Positions 37,654 to 41,626 of a stretch of DNA of 41,626 nucleotides are shown in pieces (position 1 is the stretch's first letter; the number at the start of each line of letters is the position of its first letter). A program made the position numbers and the translations under genes. This DNA comes from Sulfurimonas sp. Its GTDB lineage: Bacteria; Campylobacterota; Campylobacteria; Campylobacterales; Sulfurimonadaceae. The notes beneath the pieces are model-generated. The model was not told the DNA's origin. It worked only from the letters and a program-made list of their open reading frames with translations, and searched no databases. The stretch covers positions 1-41,626 of the forward strand of contig JALSLR010000078.1 in the NCBI GenBank assembly GCA_026988245.1, written 5' to 3'.

Positions 37654-37675
37654 ATAATATTGATATTTGTTATCA
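37654..37675. promoter_or_regulatory. Iron-box-like inverted repeat upstream of the porin promoter
   Basis: GATAAT and GTTATC arms sit 10 bases apart, resembling a loose Fur box (GATAATGATAATCATTATC). Only the arms fit; the middle (ATTGATATTT) is imperfect. Confidence 0.4.
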
Positions 37676-37681
37676 TAACCA

Positions 37682-37710
37682 TTGACATTAATAATTAAAA
37701 GTGATAGAAT
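37682..37710 (+). promoter_or_regulatory. Consensus-like sigma-70 promoter of the porin gene
   Basis: TTGACA (37682-37687), a 17-base spacer and TAGAAT (37705-37710) form the best -35/-10 pair in the window. Transcription would start near 37717, immediately before the 27-bp palindrome. Confidence 0.65.
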
Positions 37711-37722
37711 TTTGCTAAATTA

Positions 37723-37749
37723 TGATTATGATAAGTCTTATCACTATCA
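37723..37749. promoter_or_regulatory. 27-bp near-perfect palindrome, probable operator (Fur-like)
   Basis: TGATTATGATAAG and CTTATCACTATCA are inverted about the T at 37736, with 11 of 13 pairs matching and a perfect 15-bp core TGATAAGTCTTATCA. The GATAA/TTATC halves and the position at the transcription start suggest repression by Fur or a similar dimeric metal regulator. The regulator is inferred. Confidence 0.55.
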
Positions 37750-37769
37750 TAACAAATAAAAGGAAAAAA

Positions 37770-38975
37770 ATGAAACTTACAAAAACAACATTAAGTATAG
37801 CAACTGCTTTGCTATTCTCTTCAAATCTTATGGCTGATGATATAGCCGATTTAAAAACAGAGATAGCTGAACTTAAAGAGCAAACACAGGCTTTGATTGA
37901 TGAGGGAGCAAATACACAAACTGGATTTAATTATACTATAGCTGATAATGAAAAATCTTATTCAGGTTTAGGTGGGGCTGCTTCTAAGGTTTACTATTCT
38001 AAATCTCCATTGAGCATTGGTGGGTATGGTGAGATGTATTACTCAAATACAAATAACGAAGATGGTACAAACCAGTCTGAGACACAGGTAAAAAGATTTA
38101 TTACATATCTTGGTTATAAATTTAGCGACAATATTATATTAAATACAGAACTTGAGTATGAAGGTGGTGGAGTCACAACAGGTGGTAGCGGAGATGAAGT
38201 AAAGGTTGAATTCATATATATAGACTTTTTAATGCATAAAAACCTCAATCTTAGAGCCGGTAACTTTTTAATCCCAATGGGTCTCACAAATCAACAACAT
38301 GAACCTACACTCTTTACAACTGTACAACGTCCAAAAACATCTTACTACATCATACCATCTACTTGGAATGAAAGTGGAGCTATGGCATATGGAAATATTA
38401 TAGATGGTGTAGAGTATAAAGTAGCAGCTATTAATGCTCTGCAACTTGATGATGCTGCAGGAGACAAATGGCTTAGAAGTGGACGTGGTGGTTCTTTTAA
38501 AGTAGTTGACCCAAAGTTAGCTACTCTTGCTAGAGTTGATTACACAGGGACAAACGGACTACTCTTAGGAGCATCTGTATATAACTCTTCAGATGTACTT
38601 ATATGGGATACGCATGTTGATTATAAACAAAATGGTGCAAGACTTTATGGTACATACGCACAAACTTCTCGTTCAAACGAAACACCAAACTCTACAAACG
38701 TAACAGAATCATTTGGAGGCTATTTAAACGCTAGTTTTGATGTTCTTTCGCTCACTTCATCAGATAATAAATTACCTTTATTTGTTCAGTATGAGTCCTA
38801 TAATCCTCAGTCCAAAAGAGCAGATGGAACGAGTAGAGATGCTACTACAGATATTTCCCTTGGTGCGAACTATTTTCCACATCCACAGGTCGTTGTAAAA
38901 GCTGACTATGTAATGTCAACTACAAATAGTATAACAGACAACATAGCAAGTGTCTCTTTAGGTTTCATTTTCTAA
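37770..38975 (+). CDS. Outer-membrane porin (Campylobacterota type)
   Basis: About 401 residues from the ATG at 37770, which is preceded by AAAAGGA (37758-37764); an upstream in-frame ATG at 37722 lies inside the palindrome and is rejected. There is a signal peptide (MKLTKTTLSIATALLFSSNLMA), a short coiled-coil segment (DIADLKTEIAELKEQ) that may tether it to the cell wall, and a beta-barrel of alternating strands ending in the terminal phenylalanine of SLGFIF. The substrate is unknown; a metal complex is suggested by the operator and neighbours. A strong terminator follows. Confidence 0.85.
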   Translation: MKLTKTTLSIATALLFSSNLMADDIADLKTEIAELKEQTQALIDEGANTQTGFNYTIADNEKSYSGLGGAASKVYYSKSPLSIGGYGEMYYSNTNNEDGTNQSETQVKRFITYLGYKFSDNIILNTELEYEGGGVTTGGSGDEVKVEFIYIDFLMHKNLNLRAGNFLIPMGLTNQQHEPTLFTTVQRPKTSYYIIPSTWNESGAMAYGNIIDGVEYKVAAINALQLDDAAGDKWLRSGRGGSFKVVDPKLATLARVDYTGTNGLLLGASVYNSSDVLIWDTHVDYKQNGARLYGTYAQTSRSNETPNSTNVTESFGGYLNASFDVLSLTSSDNKLPLFVQYESYNPQSKRADGTSRDATTDISLGANYFPHPQVVVKADYVMSTTNSITDNIASVSLGFIF

Positions 38976-38987
38976 ATAAAGTAAAAC

Positions 38988-39019
38988 ACTTCTTGCATAA
39001 TTAATTCTATGCAAGAAGT
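38988..39019 (+). terminator. Strong hairpin terminator after the porin, related to IS ends
   Basis: ACTTCTTGCAT and ATGCAAGAAGT form a perfect 11-bp stem around a 10-base loop, followed by TTATTTTATTTTT. Its left arm plus two bases (ACTTCTTGCATAA) is identical to 41503-41515, the end of the IS element at the right edge. Confidence 0.8.
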
Positions 39020-39036
39020 TTATTTTATTTTTATAG

Positions 39037-39042
39037 TATAAT
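39037..39042 (+). promoter_or_regulatory. -10 element for the FMN-binding protein gene
   Basis: TATAAT lies 24 bases before the ATG at 39066, in a TAGTATAATCC context just after the porin terminator. No -35 is evident. Confidence 0.45.
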
Positions 39043-39065
39043 CCAAAAAAAATGAAAGAAAAAAC

Positions 39066-39590
39066 ATGTTAAAAAAACTTATTATTCTCTCTATACTCTA
39101 CACTCTTTCCCCTGCACAGATACTAATATCTCCTATTGATGCTATGCAAAATACTTATTCAAAAAGTGCAAAGATACAAAAAAGAAATGTCATTCTGACA
39201 AAAGAAAAAGCAAACAAGGTACAAAAAAAAGCCAAGGCAAAACTAAAAAGTAAAATTTTTAAGTATTTCATAGCTAAGCAAGAGGGTGAAATCCTTGGCT
39301 ATGGTATCCTAGTAAGTAGAAAAGTACGCTCAAACAACGCTGTAACAATGTACCTCATAGATACACAAGGTATCATCAAAAGCATTGAAGTAATAGCCTT
39401 TAACGAACCATTAGAGTTTATGGCTTCAGAAAAATGGATAAGTCAGTTTGACAATACTCCTAGTGAGAAGAAACTAAAAGTTGGACGAGATATAGTCACG
39501 ATAACAGGGGCTACATTAACCGCCCAAAGCTTAGTCGATGCTTCACGCATAGCATCTGCCTTTTATGAAGTTATCTTAAAGGATAAGTAG
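39066..39590 (+). CDS. Periplasmic FMN-binding domain protein with flavinylation motif
   Basis: The 174-residue precursor has a signal peptide (about 1-18), a basic helical linker rich in KAKAK (45-64) and an FMN-bind domain. The covalent flavinylation motif TGAT lies at 147-150 in ITGATLTAQSL; in NqrC/RnfG and related proteins the last threonine receives FMN from ApbE through a phosphodiester bond. The domain is short, like stand-alone periplasmic flavin carriers. It is followed immediately by two small membrane proteins and, convergently, by ApbE, so all parts needed for maturation are local. Confidence 0.83.
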   Translation: MLKKLIILSILYTLSPAQILISPIDAMQNTYSKSAKIQKRNVILTKEKANKVQKKAKAKLKSKIFKYFIAKQEGEILGYGILVSRKVRSNNAVTMYLIDTQGIIKSIEVIAFNEPLEFMASEKWISQFDNTPSEKKLKVGRDIVTITGATLTAQSLVDASRIASAFYEVILKDK

Positions 39591-40061
39591 TTGCGTTTTA
39601 CACTTGTAAAAAATCTTAAAAAAGATGCAGATATGAGCACTATACTCAAAGGTTTGCTTTTTTTTATATTTAGCTATCTTATCGCGGATTTCTTTGTAAA
39701 GTATTTTACCATAGGACTTCTTCCAGATACTCTTATACTCTCTCTGTATGGGAATGAAGAGGAATATATAGACCCTATGAGTGTATCTTCATTTTTAGAG
39801 TTTTGGCATGTTGAGATATTTTTCATCATGATGATTTTATTGACTTTAAGTGCTATTTACATTAGAACAGTTAGTAATGTTAAAAACTATAAATTTGCTT
39901 TAAACCTTGTAATGATTTCCTCGCTCATCTCTTTAGTCACACTCCCTTTAGCATTTTATATATCTAGTCATTTTGTGTATATTTACTTTATTACATATAT
40001 CCTTTGGCACCTTGGAGCACTACAAATGACACTGAGAAGTTTATGGAAACTGTATGCATAA
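39591..40061 (+). CDS. Small four-helix membrane protein, first of a tandem pair
   Basis: Not a recognised family. The 156 residues form four membrane helices (about 18-38, 71-92, 101-121, 124-147) with a loop between the first two that contains YGNEEEYIDPMSVSSFL. Histidines H73 (start of helix 2) and H127 and H140 (helix 4) could be haem ligands. The start is TTG at 39591, directly after the previous stop, supported by AAAGGA at 39578-39583; a later ATG at 39633 lacks a ribosome site. It shares the GNExxYxxP loop pattern with the next protein. A b-type cytochrome linking the quinone pool to the FMN protein is inference. Confidence 0.7.
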   Translation: MRFTLVKNLKKDADMSTILKGLLFFIFSYLIADFFVKYFTIGLLPDTLILSLYGNEEEYIDPMSVSSFLEFWHVEIFFIMMILLTLSAIYIRTVSNVKNYKFALNLVMISSLISLVTLPLAFYISSHFVYIYFITYILWHLGALQMTLRSLWKLYA

Positions 40062-40515
40062 TAGCTATAAATTAGCCATCATCTATTTTATATTTTTTTC
40101 TCTACTATTATTAATAAGTGCATTCATGTTATTTGAATATAAACTTGGCTTTGATGCTAAGAGCATAAGCCATTACTATCTTGGAAATGAACTTACTTAT
40201 ACACAACCAAAAACAATAAGTGGCTTACTAAAAGTTGTTTATCCACATATTTTTTCTATCGGTTTATTGGGCATGGTCCTACTCCACTTTATCTATTTTA
40301 CATCTTTTAGACGCACTAAGATGTTTAAATACCTTATCGTAGGGGCTTATACTACATTTTTCGTTGAGATAGTTTCACCTTTTTTCTTGCTGTTAGATAT
40401 CAAGGTTTTTGCTACTATCAAACTGATATCATTTATTCTAATGTTTATCCTTTTTATCTCTATGTTTTGGATCATACTTCACTCTATCGTAACTCAAAAA
40501 AACCAGCAGGTTTGA
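40054..40515 (+). CDS. Small four-helix membrane protein, second of a tandem pair
   Basis: The 153 residues form four membrane helices (about 7-27, 62-83, 91-113, 119-146). The loop after helix 1 reads LGNELTYTQPKTISGLL, aligning with the previous protein at G-N-E, Y, P and S, which suggests an old duplication. Histidines H65 and H77 lie in helix 2 and H143 in helix 4. The ATG lies in an 8-base overlap (ATGCATAA) with the preceding gene. The 3' end overlaps the convergent apbE gene by 32 bases. Function unknown; see the flavin-module finding. Confidence 0.7.
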   Translation: MHNSYKLAIIYFIFFSLLLLISAFMLFEYKLGFDAKSISHYYLGNELTYTQPKTISGLLKVVYPHIFSIGLLGMVLLHFIYFTSFRRTKMFKYLIVGAYTTFFVEIVSPFFLLLDIKVFATIKLISFILMFILFISMFWIILHSIVTQKNQQV

Positions 40516-41395
40516 CGAGCGTTTTTTTATCTACTTCTACTACAATATAACCAACATTAAGCTTATCTAAAAATGCGTATGCTTTTTCCTTTGGCATCAC
40601 TGAAACAGCTGTTGCGTAGGCATCAAGTGCTGAACTTTTCATATCACTTACTAATGTTATGGAAGCAAAGTTTTGTTGCGCTTGTTTTGTTTTTGGATTT
40701 ATGAGATGGTTATGTTTTTTATCTTTTACATATCTACGGTAGTTCCCACTCGTTGTAATACCTAAATTTTGATTTTTAGTTTGAAAGCTTAGCATCATAC
40801 TCTCTGAAAAAGGGTCTTGAACATCTATATGGCAAGAGTTATGACATCTGATATCTCCACTTGCACTTATAATAGCCTCATGAACATTTTTAGATAAAAG
40901 GTACTCACTTACCTTATCAATGCCAAAACCCTTTCCTATTCCACCGAGATCAATTTTTATGCCTTTGCTTAAAATTGCTTCCTTTTGCCTGATAATTAAT
41001 CCCTCAAAACTTACTTTAGCATCAGCCAACTCTTTGTTACTTGGAATACTTTCATTCACTCCGAAGCGATATAAATCTTTTGTAATAGTACCTATAGTGA
41101 TGTTAAAGTATTCATCACTTTCTTGATAGTATCTTTTAGATAATGTTAAAGCTTCAAAACTTAAGTTATCCAAATTAACTTTTTTATTTTTATTTAACAT
41201 AGAGATAATAGAATTATTTTTATAACTAGAAAGGGAGGCATCAATTTTTTTCATGATGCTAAAAGCATTTTCAATATACTTTTCATTTTTAAGATTTACT
41301 TTGATTGTAACTATAGTAGCCATAATCACTTGCATGCGAGTAACTACCTCTGCATTTAAATACGTAGATACTATCAAGATTAAAAATAATTTCAT
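40484..41395 (-). CDS. apbE: ApbE, FAD:protein FMN transferase
   Basis: The 303-residue protein has an N-terminal signal peptide (about 1-15) without a lipobox, then DLGGIGKGFGIDKV, SASGD, TTSGNYRRY, HLINPKT and the metal-binding DAYATAVSVM near the C terminus. ApbE moves FMN from FAD onto a threonine of target proteins in the periplasm. The obvious substrate is the TGAT protein at 39066-39590. It is transcribed toward that operon, overlapping the last membrane-protein gene, so antisense interference is possible. Confidence 0.92.
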   Translation of the reverse strand: MKLFLILIVSTYLNAEVVTRMQVIMATIVTIKVNLKNEKYIENAFSIMKKIDASLSSYKNNSIISMLNKNKKVNLDNLSFEALTLSKRYYQESDEYFNITIGTITKDLYRFGVNESIPSNKELADAKVSFEGLIIRQKEAILSKGIKIDLGGIGKGFGIDKVSEYLLSKNVHEAIISASGDIRCHNSCHIDVQDPFSESMMLSFQTKNQNLGITTSGNYRRYVKDKKHNHLINPKTKQAQQNFASITLVSDMKSSALDAYATAVSVMPKEKAYAFLDKLNVGYIVVEVDKKTLVKPAGFFELR

Positions 41396-41500: not shown

Positions 41501-41626
41501 AGACTTCTTGCATAACCCCTTAATCCACCTGAAAACCTCTATCAAAATTGATTAAAGCACAAATGAGATTAAATCTCAAACCAAATCGTTTTCTACGGTT
41601 ACGATATTTATGAGCAACTATTTTAA
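41501..41626 (-). mobile_element. End of an IS5-type insertion sequence
   Basis: The last 126 bases read as the outer end of an IS: a terminal-repeat-like GACTTCTTGCATAA from about 41502, then the transposase stop five bases further in. The rest of the element lies beyond the window. Confidence 0.75.
41520..41626 (-). CDS. C-terminal part of an IS5-family transposase
   Basis: On the minus strand a frame open to the window edge reads HKYRNRRKRFGLRFNLICAL and ends with a TAA at 41520-41522. The YRNRRxRFGLRFNLI pattern is the characteristic C terminus of IS4/IS5-type DDE transposases, close to the last catalytic helix. The remainder is outside the window. Confidence 0.8.
   Translation of the reverse strand, partial: KIVAHKYRNRRKRFGLRFNLICALINFDRGFQVD

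Follow-up and report, generated by a model that had tools for sequence, protein, structure and literature searches.

A conserved porin, FMN_bind, and paired membrane protein module of Sulfurimonas and its possible role in ferric iron reduction

The 41,626-nucleotide stretch of DNA analyzed here, hereafter the window, is a contig (C78; JALSLR010000078.1) of the 2.19-Mb draft genome GCA_026988245.1 of a Sulfurimonas species. Near its end lies a conserved gene module comprising a porin, a protein with an FMN_bind domain (FMN, flavin mononucleotide), two small paralogous membrane proteins (here MP1 and MP2), and a convergent apbE gene. The gene set, its conservation, the Fur-box-like sites at the porin promoter, and the partition of histidines between MP1 and MP2 are matters of observation. 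On balance, we favor the reading that the porin, the FMN_bind protein, MP1/MP2, and ApbE together constitute a periplasmic ferric reductase that is made under iron scarcity.

The gene module and its conservation

The features of the locus are as follows (positions are those of the window):

37661..37675, no strand: upstream Fur-box-like 7-1-7 palindrome TGATATTTGTTATCA, a 12/14 match to TGATAATNATTATCA
37682..37710, plus strand: sigma-70-like promoter, TTGACA-17-TAGAAT with TG before the -10 element (11/12 bases)
37729..37743, no strand: downstream Fur-box-like 7-1-7 palindrome TGATAAGTCTTATCA, a 12/14 match to TGATAATNATTATCA, 68 bp from the first
37770..38975, plus strand: outer-membrane porin of the Porin_O_P type with a signal peptide, kept beside FMN_bind in relatives; a longer open reading frame begins at 37722
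38988..39019, no strand: terminator-like hairpin in the gap between the porin and FMN genes, its arms common to an insertion-sequence-like end
39066..39590, plus strand: FMN_bind protein, RnfG-like, with a TGAT motif (Thr150), from profile match and alignment; export predicted from the N-terminal sequence only
39591..40061, plus strand: MP1, a four-helix membrane protein with a TTG start and invariant H73 and H140 (alignment, AlphaFold)
40054..40515, plus strand: MP2, a paralogue of MP1 and likewise a four-helix membrane protein, with invariant H65 and H78 (alignment, AlphaFold)
40484..41395, minus strand: ApbE, an FAD:protein FMN transferase, convergent, from profile match; near the membrane protein pair in relatives

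Pfam and NCBIfam profile scans covered six proteins of the window. The porin matches PF07396 (Porin_O_P) with 22.0 bits against a cutoff of 20.9, and its start is likely to be the ATG at 37770, downstream of AAAGGAAA, rather than 37722. The FMN protein scores 22 bits, exactly at the FMN_bind cutoff of 22; its Gly148, Ala149, and Thr150, the last of which closes the TGAT motif, are invariant in 21 aligned sequences, and it is the single FMN_bind match of the genome. ApbE is recognized far above its family cutoff (191.9 versus 25.6 bits). The TTG start of MP1, which immediately follows the stop of the FMN gene, occupies the same position in relatives, and the MP1 and MP2 genes overlap by 8 bp; apbE, being convergent, lies outside the transcript of the porin-FMN-MP genes. 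All five genes had been proposed, from the sequence alone, in an earlier note on this DNA, including the TGAT motif at Thr150 and the four-helix nature of both membrane proteins, and all five are confirmed here.

That note had also proposed that the neighbors of the membrane proteins be tabulated, and in Campylobacterota these proteins were found in company rather than mostly alone. When an aligned set of the small membrane proteins was searched against 397 Campylobacterota genomes, 48 matched. Full-length proteins are encoded in 38 of these, and the other 10 have partial matches within reading frames about 240 residues long. The neighborhoods of all 38 full-length genomes (23 + 15) were read with profiles built in this analysis (loci are designated below by L numbers). 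FMN_bind adjoins the membrane proteins and a second membrane protein is present in every one (38/38), apbE is nearby in 36 (absent from L047 and L227), and a porin is present in 34 (absent from L037, L223, L226, and L231). Counted in reverse over the same 397 genomes, 29/36 FMN_bind rows adjoin the membrane protein pair by coordinates and 7/36 stand apart. Two low-scoring membrane protein rows (L025 and L026) were rejected as chance matches: they contain internal stops, and the wider regions around them (L031 and L032) are devoid of module genes.

A separate alignment-based scan of named genomes, with selection by the FMN motif, yielded 75 loci; a single-sequence pattern scan of genome contigs had found none. 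We count 64 of the 75 as Campylobacterota, with L142 and L152 included by similarity and L199 counted out. This set is not independent of the 397 genomes, because L128 and L190 come from one genome and several genomes are shared. Among the 64 named loci, a membrane protein of this kind is present in 62, two in 61, a porin in 55, and apbE in 54; in the three with fewer than two (L128, L148, and L187), the sequence ends soon after the FMN gene. A ribBA-type gene, identified by Pfam in one case and by similarity to that gene in the others, occurs in 32/64 loci, 30 of these having it within 300 bp of apbE on the same strand. The manganese efflux gene mntP, which may offset manganese during iron shortage, is found in 8/64 named loci and in the locus of the myxobacterium Archangium. 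Across the locus collection, mntP was seen at the module in L030, L040, L140, L143, L144, L149, L155, L156, L159, L167, L191, L225, L228, L232, and L233 (by Pfam for L040 and L191 and by similarity for the other loci). Thus, the porin, FMN_bind, MP1, MP2, and convergent apbE genes are a conserved gene module.

Outside the phylum, the 11 remaining loci, all selected by the FMN motif, come from Methylococcales, Archangium, Nitrospiraceae, Bacteroidota, and one unplaced source. FMN_bind is accompanied by one such membrane protein in 9/11 of them and by two in none (0/11). In L199 (209-3451), FMN_bind, a single membrane protein, and FeoB are encoded consecutively.

The membrane protein pair and the sites at the porin promoter

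The paralogy of MP1 and MP2 that the earlier note had read from the sequence is borne out by profile comparison (hhalign probability, 95.1%; E value, 3.4e-8), and AlphaFold models each of them as four long helices (mean predicted local distance difference test scores of 90.5 for MP1 and 92.1 for MP2). The histidines that proved to be invariant are H73 and H140 in 22 MP1 sequences and H65 and H78 in 23 MP2 sequences. Relatives of these proteins are numerous, with at least 4,024 matches in one search, and include a single-copy form that is matched by both the MP1 and MP2 profiles. We compared histidines among a single-copy group (n = 128; 8 of known context plus the best 120 of 4,024 matches, whose genomic context was unseen), an MP1-type group (n = 142; 22 plus the best 120 of 258 matches), and the MP2 group (n = 23). 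The single-copy group has an H-x-H motif in the second helix (99%/100%). The MP1 type keeps the first histidine of this motif (100%) without the second, and its fourth helix contains H140 (99%). MP2 keeps the second (100%) without the first and has H78 (100%), an equivalent of which is found in 24% of the single-copy group. As the H-x-H motif is cleanly divided between MP1 and MP2, the two chains might complete one site together; this pattern suggests that MP1 H73 and MP2 H65 form a shared site, most simply one for a single heme.

Neither protein matched a Pfam family up to an E value of 1, and the sole NCBIfam match was at chance level for MP1 (E value, 0.1), with none for MP2. Foldseek and VIA-align gave no informative match for either, an absence that is no evidence of a new fold. 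Precomputed annotation assigns PF27139 to 119 of 120 listed relatives and to the relatives listed in a second search; our local copy of Pfam reported this family neither in the window proteins nor in P0001, P0021, or P0077. No mention of the PF27139 accession was found in the literature searched, which covered few subscription journals.

The porin promoter is flanked on both sides by the two palindromes. Within this one genome, TGATAATNATTATCA-like sites with up to two mismatches are not above chance (47 versus 41 for a backwards control), and promoter-like sites in the region are no more numerous than in shuffled sequence. Given that the single-genome count is at control level, only conservation across relatives was used as evidence for the palindromes, and it is this conservation that makes the porin promoter sites significant. 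A site matching at 12/14 or better precedes the porin in 48 of the 51 named relatives scored, and two nonoverlapping sites do so in 29/51 at 12/14 and in 44/51 at 11/14, with 68 bp as the commonest spacing. Of the 293 control genes scored from those loci, each 200 residues or longer, 29 have such a site, every one of them sharing the upstream region of the porin; the remaining 264 have none. Put as density, the 18.8 kb upstream of the porins contain 83 sites and the 639.5 kb elsewhere 12; in L181 and L188, where no porin was detected, two of these 12 precede the FMN gene by about 80 bp. No site at this threshold was found upstream of apbE (0/54 scored) or of the ribBA-type genes (0/12 scored). 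In L050 (10471-12212), the porin and FMN genes are divergent, and the Fur-like sites lie between them, upstream of the porin.

The same motif recurs at feoB, which is present in all 23 module genomes tested: a site at 12/14 or better lies within 700 bp upstream of 14/28 feoB genes, including that of this genome (C108:25377). According to the available text of PMC11353095, the Escherichia coli Fur box GATAATGATAATCATTATC can be understood as a pair of overlapping 7-1-7 repeats, and at a feoAB1 operator one 7-1-7 site alone is functional. As the double site is conserved, the same motif precedes feoB, and the published 7-1-7 Fur box is matched, the module is likely to be controlled by Fur, to judge from these sequence patterns. 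The metal-type control that the earlier note had read from the palindromes is thereby narrowed to iron and Fur.

Several further features of this genome are recorded here. Its four single-mismatch sites comprise three upstream of genes and one inside a long reading frame; by their look, we take the genes behind the three to encode a rubrerythrin-like protein, a small protein with an exported-looking start, and a protein like the binding proteins of ATP-binding cassette transporters. A second ApbE match stands beside a DUF3570 protein in a separate flavinylation locus (L033; G000:C89, 612-4786) coding for a thioredoxin-like protein, DUF3570, and ApbE, and also for a protein without a Pfam match that is recognized by the module porin profile. 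At the module itself, a 67-base stretch at the 38988 hairpin folds with -21.2 kcal/mol (z score, -7.3). The 12-mer that builds this hairpin has 10 copies in the genome, several of them near contig ends, and occurs again at the end of the window (41503-41626), beside a reading frame that looks like a transposase C terminus. What seems to be an insertion sequence end lies about 105 bp upstream of apbE, at the position of a ribBA-type gene in many relatives.

A candidate ferric reductase and rival explanations

The mechanism that we propose would begin with iron-loaded Fur on both operators around the porin promoter, which would be freed by iron starvation. The porin would then admit small ferric complexes to the periplasm. 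MP1 and MP2 would form an obligate heterodimer containing heme b and fed with electrons by the quinol pool, with H73 of MP1 and H65 of MP2 holding one heme between them close to the periplasmic side and with H140 and H78 taking part in a second. From there, electrons would reach the FMN that ApbE is expected to put on Thr150 of the FMN protein, and the flavin would reduce Fe(III) to Fe(II), which could cross the inner membrane via FeoB. We favor this ferric reductase because of the conserved module, the sites at the porin and feoB, the lone FMN_bind protein of the genome, the ribBA-type neighbors, the adjacency to FeoB in L199, the histidine partition, and, as further signs of a redox core, the distant CxxCH relative and the cytochrome-adjoining locus L226 described below.

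Several observations weigh against this proposal. The heme, the contact between MP1 and MP2, the covalent FMN, the quinol donor, the reduction of iron, the binding of Fur, and the selectivity of the porin are each inferred, and fold searches of the Protein Data Bank with MP1 and MP2 returned no significant match to a known cytochrome. Half of the feoB genes (14/28) have no such site, and 12 of 32 listed genomes of the same genus are without the module. Outside Campylobacterota, none of the seven porin upstream regions scored reaches 12/14, and apbE is found in only 3/11 loci. Within the window, the 38988 hairpin might uncouple the FMN gene from the porin. In L226 (4374-10501), the FMN-MP-MP core is followed by NapC/NirT and multiheme cytochromes; since this locus has neither a porin nor a Fur-like site and adjoins multiheme cytochromes, the core can serve beyond iron uptake, and L226 is possibly an extracellular electron transfer version of the module.

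This last arrangement also speaks for an iron-repressed respiratory or extracellular outlet, in which quinol electrons would pass via the FMN protein and the membrane proteins to multiheme cytochromes, minerals, or a compound admitted by the porin, with iron control reflecting only the time of need. A pentaheme cytochrome encoded directly after MP2 in four named loci, with a homologue in five more (9/64 in total), points the same way, but 55/64 named loci have no homologue of it within the loci, which reach at most about 6 kb on each side. Such an outlet also sits poorly with a Fur-like site conserved in nearly all scored loci and with the single-copy-type L199 adjoining FeoB, and we regard it as unlikely. 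Marginally less probable still is a noncytochrome role, whereby the histidines would be ligands for a metal, be it Fe(II) or a different one, or the membrane proteins would merely anchor the FMN protein, with electrons coming from elsewhere. The failure of MP1 and MP2 to match any known cytochrome family or fold is in keeping with this role; the near-invariant histidines within predicted membrane helices (spaced by 13 residues in MP2) and the constant FMN_bind neighbor speak against it. So does a relative of 235 amino acids from another family of the order, which has a CxxCH motif in the loop that leads into its H-I-H helix (L236, 5958-7741; L237, 4701-6489); in L236 it adjoins a protein of the Pfam family EB_dh, which has a response-regulator-like gene at its side. 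This relative, L226, the pentaheme loci, and L199 are hints that the core moves electrons.

The identity of the metal bears on a further possibility, that another Fur-family regulator and another metal, such as manganese or zinc, control and define the system. The genome does encode two Fur-family proteins, and mntP accompanies the module in the loci given above, but the recurrence of the 7-1-7 motif before feoB, that of this genome included, and its match to the published Fur box (PMC11353095, available text) make this the most improbable of the alternatives, and we give it little credence.

Beyond the window, the ferric reductase reading extends to a more tentative proposal, which we think somewhat likelier to fail than to hold: PF27139-type proteins would be a new class of transmembrane b-type cytochromes that feed flavinylated proteins, with the Campylobacterota heterodimer (split H-x-H) and its own porin forming a Fur-controlled, siderophore-free assimilatory ferric reductase and with the single-gene form kept in Bacteroidota, methanotrophs, and others. 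If true, this would add to flavinylation systems a class of membrane electron donors that is unlisted in the available texts of PMC8238504 and PMC11334425, give a function to the large family of relatives, and provide an iron acquisition route for Sulfurimonas-type Campylobacterota. For Campylobacter jejuni, the available text of PMC6041382 reports a flavin-linked reduction of ferric iron by an unknown mechanism, and the module is a concrete candidate gene set for this activity in environmental relatives of that organism. The split histidine motif predicts that MP1 or MP2 alone should not bind the full heme set.

Relation to known systems

The FMN protein resembles RnfG, in that its profile matches RnfG chains (E value, 4.4e-8), while falling below the NCBIfam rnfG cutoff (23 versus 102 bits). 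Among the six window proteins scanned, there are no other Rnf subunits, nor is any cytochrome family found above its cutoff, as would befit an MtrAB-type porin-cytochrome conduit. A search by titles and the openings of abstracts, with few subscription journals covered, found no description of the layout combining porin, FMN protein, paired membrane proteins, and Fur-like sites. The Caulobacter locus CC_3059-CC_3063 codes for a transporter, DUF2271, DUF4198, ApbE, and a flavoprotein, and it differs, by the names listed in the available text, in having another flavin-carrying domain and other membrane proteins (PMC3751524). The psp porin of Geobacter metallireducens and Desulfuromonas has two tandem FUR boxes, a weak similarity to PF07396, and a proposed role in iron transport; its description, in the available text, mentions no FMN or membrane partner, unlike the module, and psp may belong to a locus of this type (PMC545781).

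With flavinylation-based systems, the module shares an exported FMN_bind protein with an S/T-G-A-T motif, an apbE neighbor, a presumed electron-supplying membrane protein, and links to iron, as far as the available texts of two surveys describe them (PMC8238504 and PMC11334425). The membrane partners given there are NapH-, MsrQ-, PepSY-, DsbD-, and NQR/RNF-like proteins and DUF4405. At the sequence level of Pfam and NCBIfam, MP1 and MP2 match none of the NapH, MsrQ, PepSY, DsbD, and NQR/RNF-like classes, and the word porin is absent from the main texts of both surveys. Membership in DUF4405 (PF14358) was rejected: there is no Pfam match, and comparison with a profile of 11 aligned Campylobacterota DUF4405 sequences, a set outside which FezC lies, gave probabilities of 0.5 and 1.1%. 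The module proteins are nevertheless like the DUF4405/FezC heme b cytochromes in being small membrane proteins with paired histidines 13 to 14 residues apart. Whereas FezC is proposed to form its heme sites by homodimerization (PMC11334425, available text), MP1 and MP2 have four helices per chain and histidines divided between two genes. As paired paralogues that at the sequence level match none of the described membrane classes, with a dedicated porin, they differ from the flavinylation-based systems in the available survey texts, and the MP1/MP2 membrane component may represent a new class.

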